From Chitinophaga pinensis (GTDB lineage Bacteria; Bacteroidota; Bacteroidia; UKL13-3): 64,000 nucleotides of DNA. Shown piece by piece: positions 153 through 58,103 of this stretch; position 1 is the stretch's first letter, and each line of letters begins with the position of its first letter. The stretch is taken from assembly GCA_945870425.1 (NCBI GenBank), contig CAMBSD010000011.1, positions 1 through 64,000 on the forward strand, written 5' to 3'. Position numbers and translations under genes: made by a program. The notes beneath the pieces are model-generated. The model did not search any database. It was not told where the DNA came from and saw only the letters and a program-made list of their open reading frames with translations.

Positions 153-276
153 ATTAAATTCTTTCACTTTTTTCAGGTAAGTGTATGACACTATCATTAC
201 CAAAACACAATCGTTCCAAAAAATATTGTTAAAAACAATAATTAATTTTTTTTTATATTGCATAGTTAAAAAAATT

Positions 277-2214
277 ATGAAAAAAATATTTACTATATTC
301 AATCTATTGATTTTAGTTACAAGCAATTTTGCTCAAAATATTGGTATTGGTACAAATACACCAGCGGATAAACTTCATATAGAGGGTTCTTCGAATTCAA
401 TTAGAATTGATGGTCTTTCAAATACAGGAACATACAGTTTAACTAGAGTGCCCATCAAAGCAGTTTTTTTTGACATAAACGGATCTCTAGTAAAAGGTGG
501 TAACGGTTCACCATTAGTCGATGCTTGGTACAGTATAGGTAACAGTGGTACTTCAGGTGGTTCAAATTTTATTGGTACCTTAGATGCCCAACCTTTTGTT
601 ATTAAAACCAATGGTTCTGCGGCATCTAATGAAAGAATGCGATTTTTAGCAACAGGACAAGCAGTATACAATTCCATAACTCCATTTACTACAGATGTTT
701 TCTCAGTATATGGAACAGGTTATGCTGGCGCTACAAGTTCTCTCGGCAATTCTGCAATCAACGGTTATGTAGGAGCAAATGGTATTGGGGTATATGGAGA
801 AAGCAACAGCGCTGCTGCCAATAATGGTATTGCAGTATATGGGAATTTACTTGGAAATTCTACTGATGCTTCGTCAACAAGTTATGGTATATTAGGCCGA
901 AATACGACAGTCCCAGCTAGCACAGGTATGTCCATTGGTATTGGAAGTTTGGTTACCGCGACTTCTGGGGATGCACGTGGTTTAAATGCCGCTACTGCTT
1001 CTGCAGCAGGCGTAGGAGTTGCAGGTTATAATAACGCTACAACAGGAAACAATGCTTTCGGTGTTTTTGGTCTAACAGCTTCCAATTCAGGCGTGGGTAT
1101 ATTTGGTGTTAATAATGCCGCAGCGTTAGGAACAAATACTGGCGTTGGGATTTTTGGTAAGACTAATGGAACGCTTTCTACTGGTTTTTCTATAGGAGTT
1201 AGGGGCATGTCTGACGCAGCTACTGGCAATGGGTACGCTTTTTATGGTCAAGCCTCTTCTTCTTCTGCAATTGGCGGTATTGCTTTTGTTACAAGTTCAG
1301 GTGCCGGTTGGCAAGGACAAAATTCTGGTACTGGGGATGGGGTGCGCGGTCTTAATACAAGCACTAATTCTGGTTCGGCTGGTTCAGGTGTATATGGTCA
1401 AACAAATGCTCTTACATCACAAGGCGGAGAATTTATGAACTTTAACACTTATGGAACGGGATTATTGGCTGTAGGAAATAATGTAAGTGGCTTGTACCAT
1501 TCTGCAGGCAGCGGAGTTGCTGCAACTGGAAAACAATTTGGCGTGGTTGGTTTCGCTACAACGATATTTAATACAAACGGACTTAATGTTATAGGCGCGA
1601 ACGCTACAAATGCTAGTGCTGGCGGCTATTTTGAAGTGCAAAGTGCTGCTGGTGCGGCCCAATCTTGGTCATATGTAGGTGTGCGCGATAATACCAATGC
1701 TTTGCGTAAAATTATTGGCAATGGTACGGTAAATACAATTGTTAAAGACGTAAAAGGTGAATATATAGCTTTGTCTTGCCCCGAAGCACCTGAAAATCTT
1801 TTCGAAGATTATGGACAAGGAAAACTAGTAAATGGCATAGCACATATTACTATAGATCCTAATTTTGCTAAAAATATTACAGTAAATGAAATCCATCCCT
1901 TGCGCGTATTTGTTCAATTGGAAGGCGATTGCAAAGGTGTTTATGTTAGCAACAAAACACAAAATGGTTTTGATGTAATTGAACTAGCGGGTGGTAGCTC
2001 AAATACTTCATTCTCTTGGAATATTGTGGCCAACCGTGCCGATGAGTTATTATCGGACGGTACTGTTGCCAAGTATACATCTGAACGTTTTGCTCCAGCT
2101 CCTGGTCCTATTAAGAAAGAAAATATAAAGAAAAGAGATGCTGTCATTCAGCAACCATTAAATGATCATTCCTCTGTAAGTTTACCAATGCCAACAAAAG
2201 ATATTGAAAAGTAA
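277..2214 (+). CDS. secreted repeat protein with GVYG-type repeats (tail-fibre-like surface protein)
   Basis: About 645 residues from the ATG at 277, chosen over an upstream in-frame ATG because MKKIFTIFNLLILVTSNFAQ is a clean signal peptide. After cleavage comes NIGIGTNTPADKLHIEG, the GIGTxxPxxKL motif found at the start of many Bacteroidota and phage fibre-like proteins. The middle is about a dozen degenerate beta repeats of the form G(I/V)GVYG, GVFG, GVRG, rich in Gly, Ala, Ser and Thr, suggesting a beta-helix. The last 150 residues (VKGEYIALSCPEAPENLFEDYG...) form a different, probably globular domain. No type IX sorting domain is seen. It is followed by the S74-chaperone gene, a common pairing for such fibres. 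The exact function is not recognisable. Confidence 0.85.
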   Translation: MKKIFTIFNLLILVTSNFAQNIGIGTNTPADKLHIEGSSNSIRIDGLSNTGTYSLTRVPIKAVFFDINGSLVKGGNGSPLVDAWYSIGNSGTSGGSNFIGTLDAQPFVIKTNGSAASNERMRFLATGQAVYNSITPFTTDVFSVYGTGYAGATSSLGNSAINGYVGANGIGVYGESNSAAANNGIAVYGNLLGNSTDASSTSYGILGRNTTVPASTGMSIGIGSLVTATSGDARGLNAATASAAGVGVAGYNNATTGNNAFGVFGLTASNSGVGIFGVNNAAALGTNTGVGIFGKTNGTLSTGFSIGVRGMSDAATGNGYAFYGQASSSSAIGGIAFVTSSGAGWQGQNSGTGDGVRGLNTSTNSGSAGSGVYGQTNALTSQGGEFMNFNTYGTGLLAVGNNVSGLYHSAGSGVAATGKQFGVVGFATTIFNTNGLNVIGANATNASAGGYFEVQSAAGAAQSWSYVGVRDNTNALRKIIGNGTVNTIVKDVKGEYIALSCPEAPENLFEDYGQGKLVNGIAHITIDPNFAKNITVNEIHPLRVFVQLEGDCKGVYVSNKTQNGFDVIELAGGSSNTSFSWNIVANRADELLSDGTVAKYTSERFAPAPGPIKKENIKKRDAVIQQPLNDHSSVSLPMPTKDIEK

Positions 2215-2250: not shown

Positions 2251-2868
2251 ATGCAGAGGTATTGTCTTAATCAAAATACAACAGGACTCAATAATACAAC
2301 CAATGGCGCATATTCACTTTCATCCTATATAACGGGAAGTTTTAATATAGCAATTAGTTGGTCCCTTGTTGGAAATACTAATGGTATTGGCAATACAGCT
2401 AGTGGTTTTTATGTCCTTTTAAATAATTCTACCGGAAGTTATAATACAAGTCTTGGAACTGGAGCAGACATGAATGCAGGAATATTTAGCAACACAATAT
2501 TAATTGAATACCATTCAAGGGGTAAAGCAAGGAATCAAGTGCGCGTTGGCAGCAATAGCATTACAAGCATTGGCGGTCAGGTGGGATGGAACACCTTGTC
2601 AGACGGCAGATTTAAAGAAAATATAAAAGACGAAGATTACAAAGCATCTTCTTCTAATACTTTTATTGGTTTTATAGCACAAGAAGTTGAAGCAGCAGCA
2701 AATAAAAGATCATACCAATTCATTGGTGTTCACAGACAAAAAAACGAAGATAATACATATAGCTTGCGCAATGCTGAATTTACGGTTCCTTTGGTAAAAG
2801 TAGTGCAAGGGCTTTCAAACGAAAACACACAGTTAAAGGCTGATGTAGCTGCCCTAAAAAACAAATAG
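2251..2868 (+). CDS. S74 (endosialidase-type) intramolecular chaperone domain protein, N-terminally short, frameshifted near the end
   Basis: 205 residues. Residues 10-75 hold head-like repeats (TGLNNTTNGAYSL, GNTNGIGNTASG, NNSTGSYNTSLGTGAD). SDGRFKENI at 117-125 is the conserved SDxRxKxNI self-cleavage motif of Peptidase_S74 chaperones, followed by GFIAQEVE and a C-terminal coiled coil (LSNENTQLKADVAALKNK). These chaperones trimerise fibre proteins and then cut themselves off. There is no signal peptide, and an in-frame stop lies just upstream of the ATG, so the N-terminus is missing compared with typical relatives. The stop at 2866-2868 interrupts the coiled coil; the -1 frame continues it as QIEELRKLIKTKK to 2903, two bases before the next gene. 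See the finding on the slippery heptamer. Confidence 0.8.
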   Translation: MQRYCLNQNTTGLNNTTNGAYSLSSYITGSFNIAISWSLVGNTNGIGNTASGFYVLLNNSTGSYNTSLGTGADMNAGIFSNTILIEYHSRGKARNQVRVGSNSITSIGGQVGWNTLSDGRFKENIKDEDYKASSSNTFIGFIAQEVEAAANKRSYQFIGVHRQKNEDNTYSLRNAEFTVPLVKVVQGLSNENTQLKADVAALKNK

Positions 2869-2904
2869 AAGAATTAAGGAAACTAATTAAAACCAAAAAA
2901 TAAT

Positions 2905-4161
2905 ATGAAATCAATTTTGCAAATCTTACTAAGCCTTTTCGTTTTTGAAATGGCTAATGCCCAATTGTATATCAATACTGACATGGTTATTCAAAATGGA
3001 GAAACCCTGTACGCTGATGATACCATAAAATTTGGTAATACTGCAAATGTGTTAAGTTATGGAACTTTACAAAGTAGCAAAGGCATCCAAACCAATCAAT
3101 CCGCTATAAATACTGGAAAAACTGGCTATATTGTTAGTCCGGTTCAGTCAGGTGTCAATACTTCTTTTGATTTAGGAACAAGCTCCAGCAACAATCGAAT
3201 TTCTATTCATCATACATCGGCAAGTACGGTTGACTATCAATTGGCAGTAAGGGATAGTGTATATGAAAACCCTGCTACAAATAATTTAGCAATTACTGGG
3301 CATAGTATCAACAAAACTTGGATCGTTCACCCACTCAGCAATTCTAGCAATACCAATATTGACCTGCAATGGGCGGTTGCAAATGAGCAAAGTGGTTTCA
3401 ATCGTAACAATTGCGGATTGGCCCAATGGCAATCAGGAGTAAGCAATACATGGAGCTTTTCAAATAACACATCTGCTTCAAATAATACTGGACTCCTATT
3501 TTCAAAATCAAGCAATATGGGCAATTTAAATGCTGGAATTTACTATTACAATGTGGGTGATAATACAAACCCTTATTCTTTGCAAGCCACCCTCAATTTA
3601 ATCGTCTTTCTTGAAGGCTTATATCAAGGAAATGGCGCGATGACAGCAGCTCCATTTAATGCAGATGGAACTAGCCCTGCCACTATTGCAGATACAATAA
3701 CTGTTGACTTACATGAACAAAGTGGTGCAAATAATTTGGCCTATTCAATAACTGGCACTTTGAATACAAATGGAACAGCGGTAATCAATTTTCCTGCAGC
3801 TGTAAATTCGAATAGCTATTATATTGCAGTAAGGCATCGCAATTCCATAGAAACATGGAGTGCTGCACCAGTAATATTTAGTAGTTCTGGAACTTCATAT
3901 AACTTTAGTTCTGCACTTTCTCAAGCGTATGGTGACAATTTAAAGGATGATGGAAATGGGTTATTTATTATTTATAGTGGAGATATTAATCAAGATGGCT
4001 CTATTGATTTTAATGATTATCCTGTTTTGGATATAAGCAGTAACAATGGCGACTTGGGTTATTTAACCTATGACTTAAATGGAGATGCATCTATAGATTT
4101 TAACGATTATCCTATCTTAGATATTAATAGTAATAATGGGGTAATTTCTATAAGACCTTAA
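2905..4161 (+). CDS. secreted protein with C-terminal dockerin-like calcium loops
   Basis: 418 residues with a signal peptide (MKSILQILLSLFVFEMANAQ). The body is Asn/Ser/Thr-rich, probably beta, with no family I recognise. The C-terminus has two near-identical EF-hand-like loops, GDINQDGSIDFNDYPVLD and YDLNGDASIDFNDYPILD, each with Asp/Asn at the usual calcium-binding positions and each followed by (S)NNG, like a type I dockerin pair. It starts two bases after the extended -1 frame of the S74 gene, so the two are probably co-transcribed, and it is followed by a strong hairpin terminator. A matrix or adhesion role is likely, but the substrate or partner is unknown. Confidence 0.8.
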   Translation: MKSILQILLSLFVFEMANAQLYINTDMVIQNGETLYADDTIKFGNTANVLSYGTLQSSKGIQTNQSAINTGKTGYIVSPVQSGVNTSFDLGTSSSNNRISIHHTSASTVDYQLAVRDSVYENPATNNLAITGHSINKTWIVHPLSNSSNTNIDLQWAVANEQSGFNRNNCGLAQWQSGVSNTWSFSNNTSASNNTGLLFSKSSNMGNLNAGIYYYNVGDNTNPYSLQATLNLIVFLEGLYQGNGAMTAAPFNADGTSPATIADTITVDLHEQSGANNLAYSITGTLNTNGTAVINFPAAVNSNSYYIAVRHRNSIETWSAAPVIFSSSGTSYNFSSALSQAYGDNLKDDGNGLFIIYSGDINQDGSIDFNDYPVLDISSNNGDLGYLTYDLNGDASIDFNDYPILDINSNNGVISIRP

Positions 4162-4271: not shown

Positions 4272-4394
4272 CTATATAGTCAAAGACATGGTGAAAAACA
4301 AATTGTGTAAGAATAACCTAGACACTAAATCCGAAGTAAAGCCTATATAAATCTTGTTGTGTTTTTCTGAATGTAAGCCGTAAACGATGAACAT
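4272..4394 (-). pseudogene. GIY-YIG nuclease remnant (second copy, 40 codons)
   Basis: From the ATG at 4394 the minus strand reads MFIVYGLHSEKHNKIYIGFTSDL, identical to the intact gene at 4553-4795 for 23 residues. It then runs into unrelated sequence (VSRLFLHN...) and a stop at 4272. It is the truncated end of the tandem duplication that repeats 4726-4889 at 4325-4488. Without the rest of the domain it should be inactive. Confidence 0.8.
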
Positions 4395-4488
4395 ATTAAA
4401 TTCTATTTTGACACACTTGGCACAGTTTAACGAAAAAAGGTTTTCAGAAAACTCTGAAAACCCTTGATTTTATTGGTTGCGGAGGCAG
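4325..4488. repeat. direct repeat, left copy of a 164-bp duplication (other copy 4726-4889)
   Basis: By eye, 4325-4488 repeats 4726-4889 at a fixed offset of 401 bases with two differences. The unit holds, in minus-strand order, the 3' end of tRNA-fMet, its terminator hairpin, and the start of the GIY-YIG gene. Similarity continues beyond 4488 into a broken tRNA, where it is interrupted by palindromes. Confidence 0.9.
4433..4462 (-). terminator. duplicated tRNA terminator (downstream copy)
   Basis: Same hairpin as at 4834-4863: GGTTTTCAG at 4439-4447 pairs with CTGAAAACC at 4454-4462. Read on the minus strand it is followed by six T residues. It follows a broken tRNA copy and is a relic of the tandem duplication, although it may still end minus-strand transcripts. 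Confidence 0.7.
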
Positions 4489-4554
4489 TTCCGATAATTA
4501 TCGGAAGAACCTACGTCCGTTAGCTAACGGATATGAGCCCAACGAGCTACCACT
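4474..4554 (-). pseudogene. broken tRNA-fMet copy 1, with two palindromes
   Basis: Aligns with the intact initiator tRNA at 4875-4949. TGGTTGCGGAGGCAG (3' acceptor strand and CCA), GAACCTACG and TATGAGCCCAACGAGCTACCACT are kept. Five bases of the T arm are replaced by the perfect palindrome TTCCGATAATTATCGGAA (4489-4506). Ten bases covering the variable loop and the 3' side of the anticodon stem are replaced by TCCGTTAGCTAACGGA (4516-4531). The 5' acceptor strand is missing. It cannot fold as a tRNA. Its last bases supply the stop codon of the neighbouring GIY-YIG gene. Confidence 0.8.
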
Positions 4555-4795
4555 AATCAATTAAACTTCTTATAAACGCTCTTCCATTCGAACTCTTTAG
4601 TTCTTTCTCTCGTTTCATTGCACTTGCTTTATCTAAAAACTCTTCGGTATAAATAACCTTCCAAGGTCTGTACTTTATTGTGTATCCTTTGGTTGAAAGA
4701 TGATTATGTGAGTTCATTCGTGCCTCTAAATCCGAAGTAAAGCCTATGTATATCTTGTTGTGTTTTTCTGAATGTAAGCCGTAAACGATGAACAT
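4553..4795 (-). CDS. small GIY-YIG nuclease-superfamily protein
   Basis: 80 residues, the usual length of stand-alone GIY-YIG proteins of the UvrC-N/YhbQ type that are abundant in Bacteroidota. The core motifs are VYGLHSEKHNKIYIG (the GIY...YIG pair, with Tyr at 5 and YIG near 16-18), then R26 (DLEARM), H30 (NSHN), KYRPWKVIYTEEF and E64 in the REKELK helix. The family cuts DNA with one metal ion, but the in vivo role of these small members is unclear. It lies downstream of tRNA-fMet and its terminator on the same strand. The TAG stop is made from bases of a broken tRNA copy, so the C-terminus was probably reset by the duplication. Confidence 0.85.
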   Translation of the reverse strand: MFIVYGLHSEKHNKIYIGFTSDLEARMNSHNHLSTKGYTIKYRPWKVIYTEEFLDKASAMKREKELKSSNGRAFIRSLID

Positions 4796-4833
4796 ATTAA
4801 ATTCTATTTTGACACACTTGGCACAGTTTAACG

Positions 4834-4863
4834 AAAAAAGGTTTTCAGAAAACTCTGAAAACC
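4834..4863 (-). terminator. intrinsic terminator of tRNA-fMet
   Basis: GGTTTTCAG (4840-4848) and CTGAAAACC (4855-4863) form a perfect 9-bp stem with a 6-nt loop. On the minus strand the hairpin is followed directly by six T residues (4834-4839), the layout of a rho-independent terminator. It lies 11 bases past the CCA end of the tRNA. Confidence 0.85.
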
Positions 4864-4874
4864 CTTGATTTTAT

Positions 4875-4938
<64 letters not shown>

Positions 4939-4949
<11 letters not shown>

Positions 4950-5026
4950 ATATACCTTTTATGTTCTTACGAACTATTAATCTTTTTTTTTTCGAACCTA
5001 CGTCCGTTAGCTAACGGATATGAGCC
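4939..5026. repeat. direct repeat of the tRNA 5' flank (second copy 5049-5136)
   Basis: About 88 bases repeat at an offset of 110 with two differences by eye. They span the end of the tRNA 5' acceptor strand, its upstream flank (ATATACCTTTTATGTTCTTAC), a T run, and the start of the next broken tRNA copy with its palindrome. This shows a stepwise tandem amplification of the tRNA locus. Confidence 0.85.
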
Positions 5027-5059
5027 CAACGATTCGTTAGCCAACGAATCCACTCCGCG
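4992..5059 (-). pseudogene. broken tRNA-fMet copy 2, with two palindromes
   Basis: TCGAACCTACG, TATGAGCCCAACGA and CCACTCCGCG match the intact tRNA. The same ten bases as in copy 1 are replaced by TCCGTTAGCTAACGGA (5003-5018). The D arm (13 bases) is replaced by the near-palindrome ATTCGTTAGCCAACGAAT (5032-5049). The 3' acceptor strand and CCA are missing. It is not functional as a tRNA. Confidence 0.8.
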
Positions 5060-5101
5060 ATATACCTTTTATGTTCTTACGAACTATTAATCTTTTTTTT
5101 C

Positions 5102-5136
5102 TCGAACCTACGTCCGTTAGCTAACGGATATAAGCC
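5102..5136 (-). pseudogene. broken tRNA-fMet copy 3 (short fragment)
   Basis: TCGAACCTACG is followed by the palindrome TCCGTTAGCTAACGGA (5113-5128) and TATAAGCC. These are the same junctions as in copies 1 and 2, then similarity ends in a T run. Only the T arm and part of the anticodon arm remain. Confidence 0.75.
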
Positions 5137-5244
5137 TTTTTTTATTACCCTTCAACACTGCAATTTTTCTTTCGTTTGAAAACTTTCACTTGCTGAATAA
5201 ATGAAGGATAATTCCTTTTTTATAGGAGTGCAAATATAATGTTG

Positions 5245-5277: not shown

Positions 5278-6162
5278 ATGGGTTTTAAATCGGGTTTTGT
5301 AAGTATTATAGGTAAGCCAAACGTTGGTAAAAGCACCTTGTTGAACGCCATCATTGGTGAAAAATTATCCATAATTACACCGAAGGTGCAAACCACGAGA
5401 CACAGAATAATGGGTATCTTAAACAATCCAGACTATCAAATTGTGTTTAGCGATACCCCGGGAATCATTCAACCTCACTACAAATTGCAAGGAAGCATGA
5501 TGAAATTTGTAAACGAAAGTTTGCAAGATGCAGACTTGGTTTTATTTGTTTGTGATTTTGACAGAGGAAGCGAAGAACCTGAAATCATCGAAAGACTTAA
5601 ACTTATTAAAACCCCAATGATTTGTTTGATAAATAAAATTGATGAAAGTGGCCAAGATGCGGTTACAGAGAAAATAAATTTTTGGCGTCAACAAGCCAAC
5701 TTCAAAGAAGTTATTCCTATTTCAGCTTCAAACAAGTTTAACATTGACATCCTTTTAAACAATATCAAAGAATATCTTCAAGAAGGTGCGCCTTACTTTG
5801 AAATGGACCAAATGACTGATAAGTCAGAACGTTTCATTGCATCTGAAATAATCCGTGAAAAGATAATGCTTCGCTATAAAGAAGAGATTCCATATTCAGT
5901 TGAGGTTGAAATTGAAAGTTTTAAAGACGAAGAAAAAATCATCCGTATTTCAGCAGTAATCTATGTGTTGCGAGATTCTCAAAAGCAAATCCTAATCGGA
6001 CGAGGTGGAATAGCCATTAAGAATGTGGGTGTTGCTGCTAGAAGAGACATGGAAAAATTCTTTGGAAAACACGTGTTTCTGCAAACCTTTGTAAAAGTTA
6101 AAGAAGGATGGCGCGATAATGACAACATGCTAAGACAATTCGGTTATGAAACCGATAAATAA
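5278..6162 (+). CDS. era: GTPase Era
   Basis: 294 residues, normal length. It is a Ras-like GTPase with a C-terminal KH domain that binds the 3' end of 16S rRNA and helps mature the 30S subunit. Visible motifs are G1 GKPNVGKS (12-19), T40 in switch I, G3 DTPG (59-62), G4 NKID (119-122), G5 SAS (149-151), and the KH motif with GRGGIAIKNVG (241-251). The ATG at 5278 gives the usual MGFKSGFVSIIGKPNVGKST start. It ends two bases before convergent murF. Confidence 0.97.
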   Translation: MGFKSGFVSIIGKPNVGKSTLLNAIIGEKLSIITPKVQTTRHRIMGILNNPDYQIVFSDTPGIIQPHYKLQGSMMKFVNESLQDADLVLFVCDFDRGSEEPEIIERLKLIKTPMICLINKIDESGQDAVTEKINFWRQQANFKEVIPISASNKFNIDILLNNIKEYLQEGAPYFEMDQMTDKSERFIASEIIREKIMLRYKEEIPYSVEVEIESFKDEEKIIRISAVIYVLRDSQKQILIGRGGIAIKNVGVAARRDMEKFFGKHVFLQTFVKVKEGWRDNDNMLRQFGYETDK

Positions 6163-38789: not shown

Positions 38790-38892
38790 AAAAAATTTAA
38801 ATAAATAACGTTAAACAAAATTGCAGACTAGGGCTGCTGCAACCATACTTGTTTACCAATACTCTGTAGAACCGAAACTTTTTTAATGAAGT

Positions 38893-38976
38893 CGGTCTTC
38901 TCCCTTCGCAGGCATTATCCTGTGCAGGTTCAGAGGGTATAATCTCAGGCTGTTTTATTCAAACAACCACCCCTAA
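38893..38976 (-). promoter_or_regulatory. TPP (THI-element) riboswitch
   Basis: On the minus strand the conserved THI-box parts occur in order: AGGGGTGG (38967-38974), CTGAGA (38943-38948), ACCCTCTGAACCTG (38925-38938), GGATAATGCC (38911-38920) and GAAGGGA (38901-38907). P2, P3 and P4/P5 pairings can be drawn. It lies about 104 bases upstream of the TonB receptor start on the same strand, so thiamin pyrophosphate should repress that gene. No clear terminator hairpin was seen between it and the start codon, so control may be of translation. Confidence 0.93.
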
Positions 38977-39027
38977 AGACGATGCAATATTAGGTATTTT
39001 TTAATTGATTTTTATTAATTGTGTATT

Positions 39028-41243: not shown

Positions 41244-42059
41244 TTATTTAATCTTAGAAGTAGTTGGGTTTTTTAAATTTTTATAGTCAGTTAAAGTCAT
41301 GGCCACGGCACCAACAAAAATCTCAGATTCTACTTTCAATACAATGTGGTTATCATCATCGCTTACCCAAATGGTTAGGGCATCTTCGTTTTTAAAGAAA
41401 TCCCCAGTCTTAACCTGTGGTCTAATTTTGATAGCGTTAAACTTACCTGCATCTATTTTCACAACCTCTTTACCCAAGTATTTTATGGCATAGTTATACA
41501 CCTTACCATCCATATAAAACACAGTTGGATAAGTGTCCCCAACTTTGGCATTTTTTACATCCCAAACACGAGTCCAGTAATACACAGAAAGCAAGTCTTG
41601 CACTTGGTTAGACACGTTGTCTATAGATGCTTTTTTAGCATTAATTTTATTTGCATCTCTATCAAACAAAGCAAAGTCAGAATCGCGGTATTTACCTTCT
41701 TCTACTTTTTTGGTATATTTCAAAGGTACCAAGTACTCCTCGTCCATATAGGTTTCGTAATCATTTCTTACTTTGTTGTACAGGAAATCTATAGATCCCG
41801 AAGATTTAGCTGATGCCTTGATATTAAAAGTTCTGCGGCCATTAACCAATACAGGTTCGTTTTGTATTTCTAAAGTTGCATAACCAGCATTAAAGGGTCC
41901 ATAGTGCATACGGTATTGCAATTTCTCACCGTAGGTAAAAGCAAAATTGCTAACCTTTACTTGATTATCATTCTTTACTTTGGGCAATTGCACCGAATAG
42001 CTTTTAAAGCTATATAGGCCAATGAATAAAACAGCAAGGTACTTAATACTAGTTTTCAT
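41244..42059 (-). CDS. DUF3108 domain protein
   Basis: 271 residues from the ATG at 42059 (MKTSIKYLAVLFIGLYSFKSYS, a signal peptide), preferred over an ATG six codons upstream. FAFTYGEKLQYRMHYGPFNAGYATLEIQNE ... LYNKVRNDYETYMDEEYLVPLKYTKKVEEGKYRDSDFALFDRD is the DUF3108 pattern, a predicted periplasmic beta-sheet domain of unknown function, widespread in Gram-negatives. It follows the transketolase operon on the same strand after 90 bases. Confidence 0.82.
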   Translation of the reverse strand: MKTSIKYLAVLFIGLYSFKSYSVQLPKVKNDNQVKVSNFAFTYGEKLQYRMHYGPFNAGYATLEIQNEPVLVNGRRTFNIKASAKSSGSIDFLYNKVRNDYETYMDEEYLVPLKYTKKVEEGKYRDSDFALFDRDANKINAKKASIDNVSNQVQDLLSVYYWTRVWDVKNAKVGDTYPTVFYMDGKVYNYAIKYLGKEVVKIDAGKFNAIKIRPQVKTGDFFKNEDALTIWVSDDDNHIVLKVESEIFVGAVAMTLTDYKNLKNPTTSKIK

Positions 42060-42149
42060 AATAAGAGTGATTTGCAAACCTTATACCAAATCTACAAAAA
42101 TAGTATTGAGAAAATATATTATTATTAAAGTTTGCTGATAACAAGCCGT

Positions 42150-56327: not shown

Positions 56328-58103
56328 ATGCCATTTATTAGAAAAATATCGATTATTATCTTTTTTGTTTTTTTCTGGTGCAAAGCATTCACACAAGAAA
56401 TGACACTGAGTAGAGTTTGTGAAAATGGTAATAATAATATTTTAATCTGGATTCGACCAACAAGCTTTTGTGACAATTTTATTAGTTACGCCATCTATTT
56501 TCGCGAATACAAACCTTCAAGTCCAGACCCGTATACACTCTTGACTGAAATCTTCACAGACCCTACCACAACATACACTCATATAAATGCCAATACAAAC
56601 TTTGGGAAAAAAAATGAATACAAAATTACCCTAAACTATTTGTGTAGTGGTATTCCGAAAACTATAGATTCTCAAGATAAAATTGCGGATTTGATTCCAC
56701 CCGATCCAACTGTCATTGATTCAATTTCTGTTGACCCAATTACCAATGTAGTTTATGTTTCTTGGTTTCCCAATAAGACCACTGATTTTAGCGATTATTC
56801 TGTATATTCCTCTGGAATTGAAATAAAAATTACTAAGAGTCTCTCACATACAGATGCAACAAATAACCCGAAATCCAAATCAATAAGCTATGAGGTTACT
56901 GGCTATGATTCATGTGGCAATAAAAACAATTTTGGGCAGAATCAACATAATACCATTTATCTAATATCCAGCATTGATACTTGCAAATCCAGTGTGAATT
57001 TAAATTGGTCTCATTATAAGGGTTGGGATAGTATCAGTAAATATTATATTTTTAGATCTATCAATTCGTCTGGTTATATTCTAATTGATAGCATAAATGG
57101 TAAAACCAATTCATATATAAATAATTCTGTTCCGCTCCAATCAACAATTTCATATTTTGTTCGCGCTATTAAAGACACTTCTATTCTTACTAGTTCGTCA
57201 TCAAATTCAACCGATATGCAAAGCGCCAAAAGGGGGGTAATCAAATCCACGTATATAAATTATGTAAGTATAGAAAATAGCAAAATTGAAATCAGCATTC
57301 ATGTAGACAGTACCAATTACCTTGAAAAGTTAAATATCAATAAAAGTCCAGTCAATCAAAATGCATTTTCACTATTGAGGGCATATAGTCACGGAGAAAT
57401 AAATGCGTTGTCAAATCTCATTCATATTGACAATCCTTCTGTCGTTGAAGATGCTTGGAAATATAAAGTAATTGCTTTTGATGTGTGTAATTTGGCCGTT
57501 GATTCATCCCAAACTTCAGGGAACATCGTGCTTAATGGCGAGAACCAAGGAGACAAAAATCTCCTTTATTGGTCAAAGTATTTCACGTGGAACACGGGAG
57601 TAAAATCATACATAATTAACAGGTATTTAGATAATTACATGGTAACCGGATCAAATCCGGTGGTAATAAACACACTTAACCAAAGCGACAGTTTCTTTGT
57701 TGATTTTGACCCAGGACTAGTGGGCAAAACAGCGTGTTACTATATAGAGGCAGAACAAAATACAGGGTCTATATTCGGTAAAACAGAAAAGTCAAAATCA
57801 AATGTATTCTGTATTGAGGGAAATTCGAGTATATATCTTCCCAATGCCTTACACTTGAACAATGGACAAAATTCAATATTCCTGATTCGCGGATTAAATA
57901 TTAATACAACAAACCTATATTTTGAGGTTTTTGATAGATGGGGAAGAAGTGTAATTATACTAAATGATCTAAGCAGCGGCTGGGCTGGAATTGATAAAGA
58001 TGGGTCAGTGCTTGAGCAAGGATTGTATTTCTATTTACTAAAAACAACAAATACAAAAGGGGAAACAATAAATAAGAATGGTGGAATCTACATATTCAAA
58101 TAG
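56328..58103 (+). CDS. secreted protein with type B (CHU_C-like) type IX sorting domain
   Basis: 591 residues. Signal peptide (RKISIIIFFVFFWCKAFTQ). The middle is several fibronectin-like beta domains (ILIWIRPTSFCDNFISYAIYFREY, VNLNWSHYKGWDSISKYYIFRSI) with Tyr and Ser rich strands. The last ~95 residues (IYLPNALHLNNGQNSIFLIRG ... YFEVFDRWGRSVI ... GWAGIDKDGSVLEQGLYFYLL) are the gliding-associated C-terminal domain that directs export by the SprA system. It contains a parS-like site in its coding sequence (57579-57594). It overlaps ybeY by 26 bases. Confidence 0.92.
   Translation: MPFIRKISIIIFFVFFWCKAFTQEMTLSRVCENGNNNILIWIRPTSFCDNFISYAIYFREYKPSSPDPYTLLTEIFTDPTTTYTHINANTNFGKKNEYKITLNYLCSGIPKTIDSQDKIADLIPPDPTVIDSISVDPITNVVYVSWFPNKTTDFSDYSVYSSGIEIKITKSLSHTDATNNPKSKSISYEVTGYDSCGNKNNFGQNQHNTIYLISSIDTCKSSVNLNWSHYKGWDSISKYYIFRSINSSGYILIDSINGKTNSYINNSVPLQSTISYFVRAIKDTSILTSSSSNSTDMQSAKRGVIKSTYINYVSIENSKIEISIHVDSTNYLEKLNINKSPVNQNAFSLLRAYSHGEINALSNLIHIDNPSVVEDAWKYKVIAFDVCNLAVDSSQTSGNIVLNGENQGDKNLLYWSKYFTWNTGVKSYIINRYLDNYMVTGSNPVVINTLNQSDSFFVDFDPGLVGKTACYYIEAEQNTGSIFGKTEKSKSNVFCIEGNSSIYLPNALHLNNGQNSIFLIRGLNINTTNLYFEVFDRWGRSVIILNDLSSGWAGIDKDGSVLEQGLYFYLLKTTNTKGETINKNGGIYIFK
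57579..57594. promoter_or_regulatory. parS-like site inside a coding sequence
   Basis: TATTTCACGTGGAACA differs from the parS consensus TGTTTCACGTGGAACA only at the second base. It keeps the full CACGTG core and both half-sites. It lies 951 bases from the exact match at 58530. Confidence 0.65.

Follow-up and report, generated by a model that had tools for sequence, protein, structure and literature searches.

A slippery heptamer in a Peptidase_S74 gene fragment: probably a one-base indel in a decaying gene rather than programmed frameshifting

The window analysed here is the whole stretch of 64,000 nt, and near its start the heptamer AAAAAAC stands just before the stop codon of an ORF with likeness to the Peptidase_S74 family. 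In bacterial -1 frameshift genes such as dnaX, or those of the insertion-sequence type, an X_XXY_YYZ heptamer is likewise found in register with the gene. Does the heptamer here change the frame of the ribosome, or does it mark a place where the DNA itself has changed? The original prediction left both options standing, programmed frameshifting that yields two lengths of a coiled coil or the simple loss of one A from the run. The evidence favours a decaying S74 gene fragment whose A run has gained or lost one base, not a programmed frameshift, with a probability of about three in four. The features of the locus are:

2251..2868, plus strand: S74 (chaperone of endosialidase) gene fragment, 205 codons (Pfam match, alignment to relatives)
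2617..2667, plus strand: gap between SDGRFK and GFIAQEVE, without the S74 core GLxFIxKLRPVxY and what follows it (alignment to 17 relatives, PF13884 match)
2856..2862, plus strand: A_AAA_AAC, a run of six A's, likely site of a one-base indel (sequence, register, shuffles)
2866..2868, plus strand: 0-frame stop TAG (sequence)
2862..2903, plus strand: -1 frame tail QIEELRKLIKTKK and stop TAA, likely the relic of a coiled-coil end (shuffle tests)
2905..4161, plus strand: next gene, an ORF of 418 codons (ORF list)

The heptamer and its two frames

From the ATG at 2251 the frame reads GCC CTA AAA AAC AAA TAG across the heptamer, which therefore has the A_AAA_AAC register, with a single codon (AAA) between its AAC and the 0-frame stop. 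A slip of -1 leads into QIEELRKLIKTKK and on to the TAA at 2901-2903, one spacer base ahead of the ATG of the next gene at 2905. The exact register and the -1 reading that ends just ahead of the next gene had both been predicted and are borne out.

Heptamers of this kind are ordinary in the window, which has a GC content of 36 %. Among the 41 ORFs of at least 150 aa (18,566 codons) there are 15 in-register A_AAA_AAC sites, two of them in ORF 2251-2868, where synonymous-codon shuffles expect 9.6 +/- 2.9 and 9 of 200 shuffles reach the observed number. The heptamer is common in register, not avoided, and no more than chance would give; after 4 of the 15 sites the -1 frame stays open for at least 13 codons. 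Its position is less usual. Two genes carry A_AAA_AAC within 31 nt of their end (ORF 2251-2868 at 13 nt and ORF 41244-42077 at 31 nt), against 0.19 expected from the shuffles. This is mild evidence for something local, although an A-run indel would of itself produce an end of this kind. In-register slippery heptamers are common in this A-rich genome, and recoding should not be called until the condition of the host gene and of its relatives has been looked at.

The region around the heptamer was searched for stimulators of frameshifting. The downstream stimulatory structure that the original prediction had put forward as a check is absent within 60 nt: as secondary structure without pseudoknots, the first 60 nt have an energy of 0, and not one of 660 sampled 60-nt stretches is less stable. 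The fold of 2867-2917 also has an energy of 0, and the 100-nt fold downstream of the heptamer has a z-score of -0.04. A stretch of 124 nt folds at -16.4 kcal/mol (a single energy, set against no shuffles), with stems from about 2891 on that lie mostly inside the next gene. Upstream, no piece of AGGAGG of at least 4 nt is present in the 25 nt before the heptamer. The CHU_C type IX secretion domain at 56328-58103 points to a Bacteroidota lineage, and according to PMC9976891, Bacteroidia ribosomes do not recognise Shine-Dalgarno sequences.

State of the S74 gene

The host gene itself is incomplete. ORF 2251-2868 holds a few repeats of the NTTGxxNTAxG type, the SDGRFK motif, the GFIAQEVE half of the domain and the start of a coiled coil. 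SDGRFK is its form of the SDxRxK motif of Peptidase_S74, which has a catalytic role. Secreted fibre-like proteins with a Peptidase_S74 domain (PF13884) have in common with the fragment the NTTGxxNTAxG-type repeats, VRIGxxxVTSIGGQVxWxTxSDGRxK, GFIAQEVE and VPLVKAVQ, followed by the coiled coil. Unlike these proteins, the fragment has neither a signal peptide nor the core of the domain, and its 205 codons compare with open frames of 380-1383 aa, as read here, in the relatives.

The core segment GLxFIxKLRPVxY is present, with small variations, in 17/17 aligned relatives and absent from the fragment. A crude core motif failed on 6 of 29 S74 ORFs, and the claim rests on Pfam and the alignment instead. 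In the profile search, PF13884 matches ORF 2251-2868 only at positions 36-53 of 58, scoring 20.3 bits where the cut-off is 22; for the entire open frame the score rises to 23.6 bits, just above the cut-off, and no full-length match above the cut-off was found for this ORF. In all 17 relatives the match begins at position 1, ends at 52-57 and scores 26.3-51.3 bits. In the family search at E <= 1e-4, a threshold that itself favours full matches, 65 of 66 matches begin at position 1 and extend to at least 49, and one spans 4-53. PF13884 is found at this threshold in 39 of the 64 family genomes, and the genome of the window is not among them.

The front end is missing as well. The ORF begins inside the NTTG-type repeats, behind an in-frame stop at 2242-2244, and has no signal peptide. 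A signal-like N-terminal stretch can be seen by eye in 13 of the 17 relatives, the remaining four being cut by the end of the locus or contig. Core and N-terminus, parts conserved in the relatives, are thus lost, as in a pseudogene, and on the best reading of the alignments ORF 2251-2868 would be a fragment in decay, although its 205 codons are still open. To call it an S74 chaperone gene, as the original prediction did, was generous: motifs of the family are present, but only in a fragment that lacks the domain core.

No intact copy was found elsewhere. A protein search of the own genome returns only ORF 2251-2868, and PF13884 at E <= 1 gives this ORF and one match below the cut-off, with no second S74 gene found. 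A scan of genome contigs for close relatives gave 81 pattern stretches and no confirmed relative. The only same-genus genome (70 % complete) has no S74 match; Era, the neighbour at 5278, is also not found there, and the copy of the locus in that genome may therefore simply be missing. A DNA search of the same genome matched the next gene only (40 of 90 candidates scored), a match on which nothing here rests. Among solved structures, the fibre chains of Bdellovibrio in PDB entries 8ojn and 8ond ('bd2133') are similar to the fibre part of one relative, the G007 protein (L032/L071; E 1.5e-5 and 0.045), and presumably both are linked to 'mosaic adhesive trimers'. Unlike that protein, the fragment matches no solved chain at E <= 1.

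Origin of the -1 tail

Is the -1 tail former coding sequence? With free placement, no dinucleotide shuffle out of 4000 (1219 open) comes as close to the C-termini of the 17 relatives as QIEELRKLIKTKK does, and 24 of 4000 permutations of the tail's residues reach the same family likeness. When the distance to the VPLVK anchor is kept at that of the tail, 4 of the 1152 shuffles that are open (4000 made) are as similar. The best freely placed matches, for example QIDELKKLV in L031 and L034, are found some two heptads nearer the N-terminus than the position of the tail in the fragment; at the tail's own distance from the anchor these two carry QIQLLL, and the likeness is weaker and still unusual. 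The tail also carries on the heptads of the coiled coil, as 7 of 4000 shuffles do. Judged by these comparisons the family likeness is not chance, and the -1 peptide seems to derive from former coding sequence of the S74 family. As the tail is family-like and the coiled coil of the relatives is encoded in the main frame, the two frames were most likely once one.

Length does not separate the two ends. Counted from the VPLVK anchor up to the stop, the 0-frame product is 27 residues long, a length shared with 4 of 17 relatives, and the product with the -1 tail has 39, as in one relative (L031); the relatives range from 27 to 132, those at neither length falling elsewhere between 34 and 132. By this comparison neither end is abnormal for the family. 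The claim that the tail completes the coiled coil expected of the family therefore stands in part, since the longer end has its counterpart in one relative, but the shorter end is already normal. The exact agreement of the 0-frame end with four relatives could also mean that the TAG is the natural end and the -1 peptide a product of chance. This is very unlikely in view of the shuffles, both freely placed and at fixed position.

Conservation was examined in two sets of relatives. A_AAA_AAC is found in 0/17 between GFIAQEVE and the stop, and in 0/29 S74 ORFs in the last 45 nt; the 29 are the distinct ORFs with both SDxRxK and a GFIAQEV-like motif from 48 scanned loci, other and repeated ORFs having been dropped. 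About 7 of the 29, judged by eye, have a sorting-type tail rather than a coiled coil at their end, and in these the last 45 nt are not an equivalent place. Other in-register heptamers do occur, in 5 of the 29 in the last 45 nt (L046 with A_AAA_AAG, L099 with A_AAA_AAA, L109, L110 and L111) and in 6 of the 17 from GFIAQEVE to the stop (L031, L038, L044, L046, L047 and L048). All these relatives are distant, with 29-46 % identity over longer pieces and up to 63 % over short ones, so their lack of A_AAA_AAC argues against a site conserved from long ago but leaves room for a very recent one. Within that limit, the heptamer and the two frames, whose conservation the original prediction had proposed to compare, are not conserved; homologues without the heptamer and with the coiled coil in one frame, which it had named as evidence to the contrary, are what the distant relatives present (17, and 29 for the last 45 nt).

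The preferred reading takes its observed base from the register, the two frames, the missing core and signal peptide, and from the fact that no second S74 gene, nearby stimulator or A_AAA_AAC in an examined relative was found. On this reading, ORF 2251-2868 would be what remains, in decay, of the 3' end of a gene for a secreted fibre-like protein that had an S74 intramolecular chaperone domain at its C-terminus; the front end of the gene and the core of that domain would have been lost. Close to the 3' end, a change of one base in the run of A's would have put the last 13 codons into the -1 frame, and the heptamer would simply reflect the Lys-rich, A-rich codons with which the coiled coil ends. 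We infer that the change was the loss of a single base in the DNA and that the product has no function. Of the two options first proposed, the simple deletion gains support from the family-like tail together with the damaged host gene. Three observations count against decay, namely that 205 codons are open in one frame, that the loss of the core leaves the frame intact and that PF13884 just passes its cut-off once the entire frame is scored; the decay may be recent, or the ORF may still be held by selection. Against damage by the frame change in particular, the 0-frame end is of normal length for the family, and a shift of frame by itself may have done the protein no harm.

The main rival is a sequencing or assembly error, in which the true A run would differ in length and the tail would be in frame, with the S74 core and front end missing all the same. 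A one-base homopolymer error would give exactly the picture seen, and passages of PMC3711429 describe frame breaks in one genome only as likely indels or sequencing errors and, for those confirmed by BLASTp, expect sequencing errors rather than genuine indels. However, six bases is short for a homopolymer error, and other long ORFs run unbroken through in-register six-A (38) and six-T (21) sites among the 41 ORFs. In addition, no Pfam domain is broken across two ORFs among 20 of the 53 listed ORFs (same-strand neighbours, 17 of the 20 with a Pfam match), which mildly favours a true indel. An error is unlikely on balance. Transcriptional slippage, a known mechanism at A runs, could restore the tail in some of the mRNAs, but the run has six A's and, in the part of PMC1088944 that treats this, selection against slippage is evident at nine in a large proportion of genomes, though variably; slippage can be given almost no weight.

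Programmed -1 ribosomal frameshifting, giving a short and a long coiled coil, would fit the exact register, the heptads continued by the -1 peptide and the stop one base ahead of the next ATG. Excerpts of PMC4066793 lend it some precedent, with an insertion-sequence cluster in which a shift at A_AAA_AAC is proven and a stimulator not established, and with 39 of the heptamers tested that shift at least twofold over background in E. coli without a stimulator. The same excerpts state that high-level shift in bacteria needs a ZZN that is all purine or all pyrimidine, and AAC is neither. Unlike the shifts in dnaX and in insertion sequences (for the latter, parts of PMC4066793), the heptamer here has no nearby structure or Shine-Dalgarno-like piece, in a class whose ribosomes are blind to such sequences (PMC9976891); it is not conserved in the distant relatives, it is ordinary in the window, and its host gene is damaged elsewhere. 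Programmed frameshifting is therefore very improbable. If true, it would mean a cellular gene that uses A_AAA_AAC in a lineage with ribosomes blind to Shine-Dalgarno sequences; as matters stand, the finding matters little. More doubtful again is a stand-alone, S74-derived trimerising piece that would act in trans on the product of 181-2214, with a low-level -1 shift lengthening the coiled coil and passing ribosomes to 2905.

Surroundings of the locus

Upstream lies a fibre-like ORF (181-2214), which was compared with L032 as a candidate for the lost front half of the fragment. Residues 4-140 of L032 match window positions 250-684, and its residues 263-510 correspond to 2308-2850, with both matches in one and the same frame. 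A former S74 fibre gene may thus have given way to the upstream gene, or the latter may have split off from it. It has a C-terminal region of its own, matched in 5 other genomes of 40 searched, and a split or replaced S74 gene is therefore only possible.

The S74 locus stands at the start of the contig, among GIY-YIG-endonuclease-like copies and tRNA-like repeats near 4507-5142, a repeat-rich setting that fits rearrangement and decay. Three copies of the GIY-YIG-like stretch flank the locus (60-162, 4302-4404 and 4703-4805), with identities to the first copy of 79 % for the second and 76 % for the third; the name comes from the motif HSEK..KIYIGFTSDLEAR. Minus-strand ORFs at 36-326 and 4553-4795 overlap the first and third copies. 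A 200-nt repeat is present at 4289-4488 and 4690-4889 (91 %), an 88-nt repeat at 4939 and 5049 (98 %), and a 39-nt repeat at 4507, 4994 and 5104, beside tRNA-Met (4875-4949, minus strand). By eye, the repeats within 4289-5142 are repeated or decayed tRNA-like units.

For the C-terminal part of the protein encoded by 2905-4158, a further 18 matches lie in its own genome (open frames of 265-2906 aa) and 13 in the same-genus genome; this part is possibly a lineage-specific C-terminal domain, to judge from these matches. A likeness of this protein to dockerin is below the cut-off. Elsewhere in the window there is a CHU_C type IX secretion domain at 56328-58103 and a TPP riboswitch at 38884-38984 on the minus strand.
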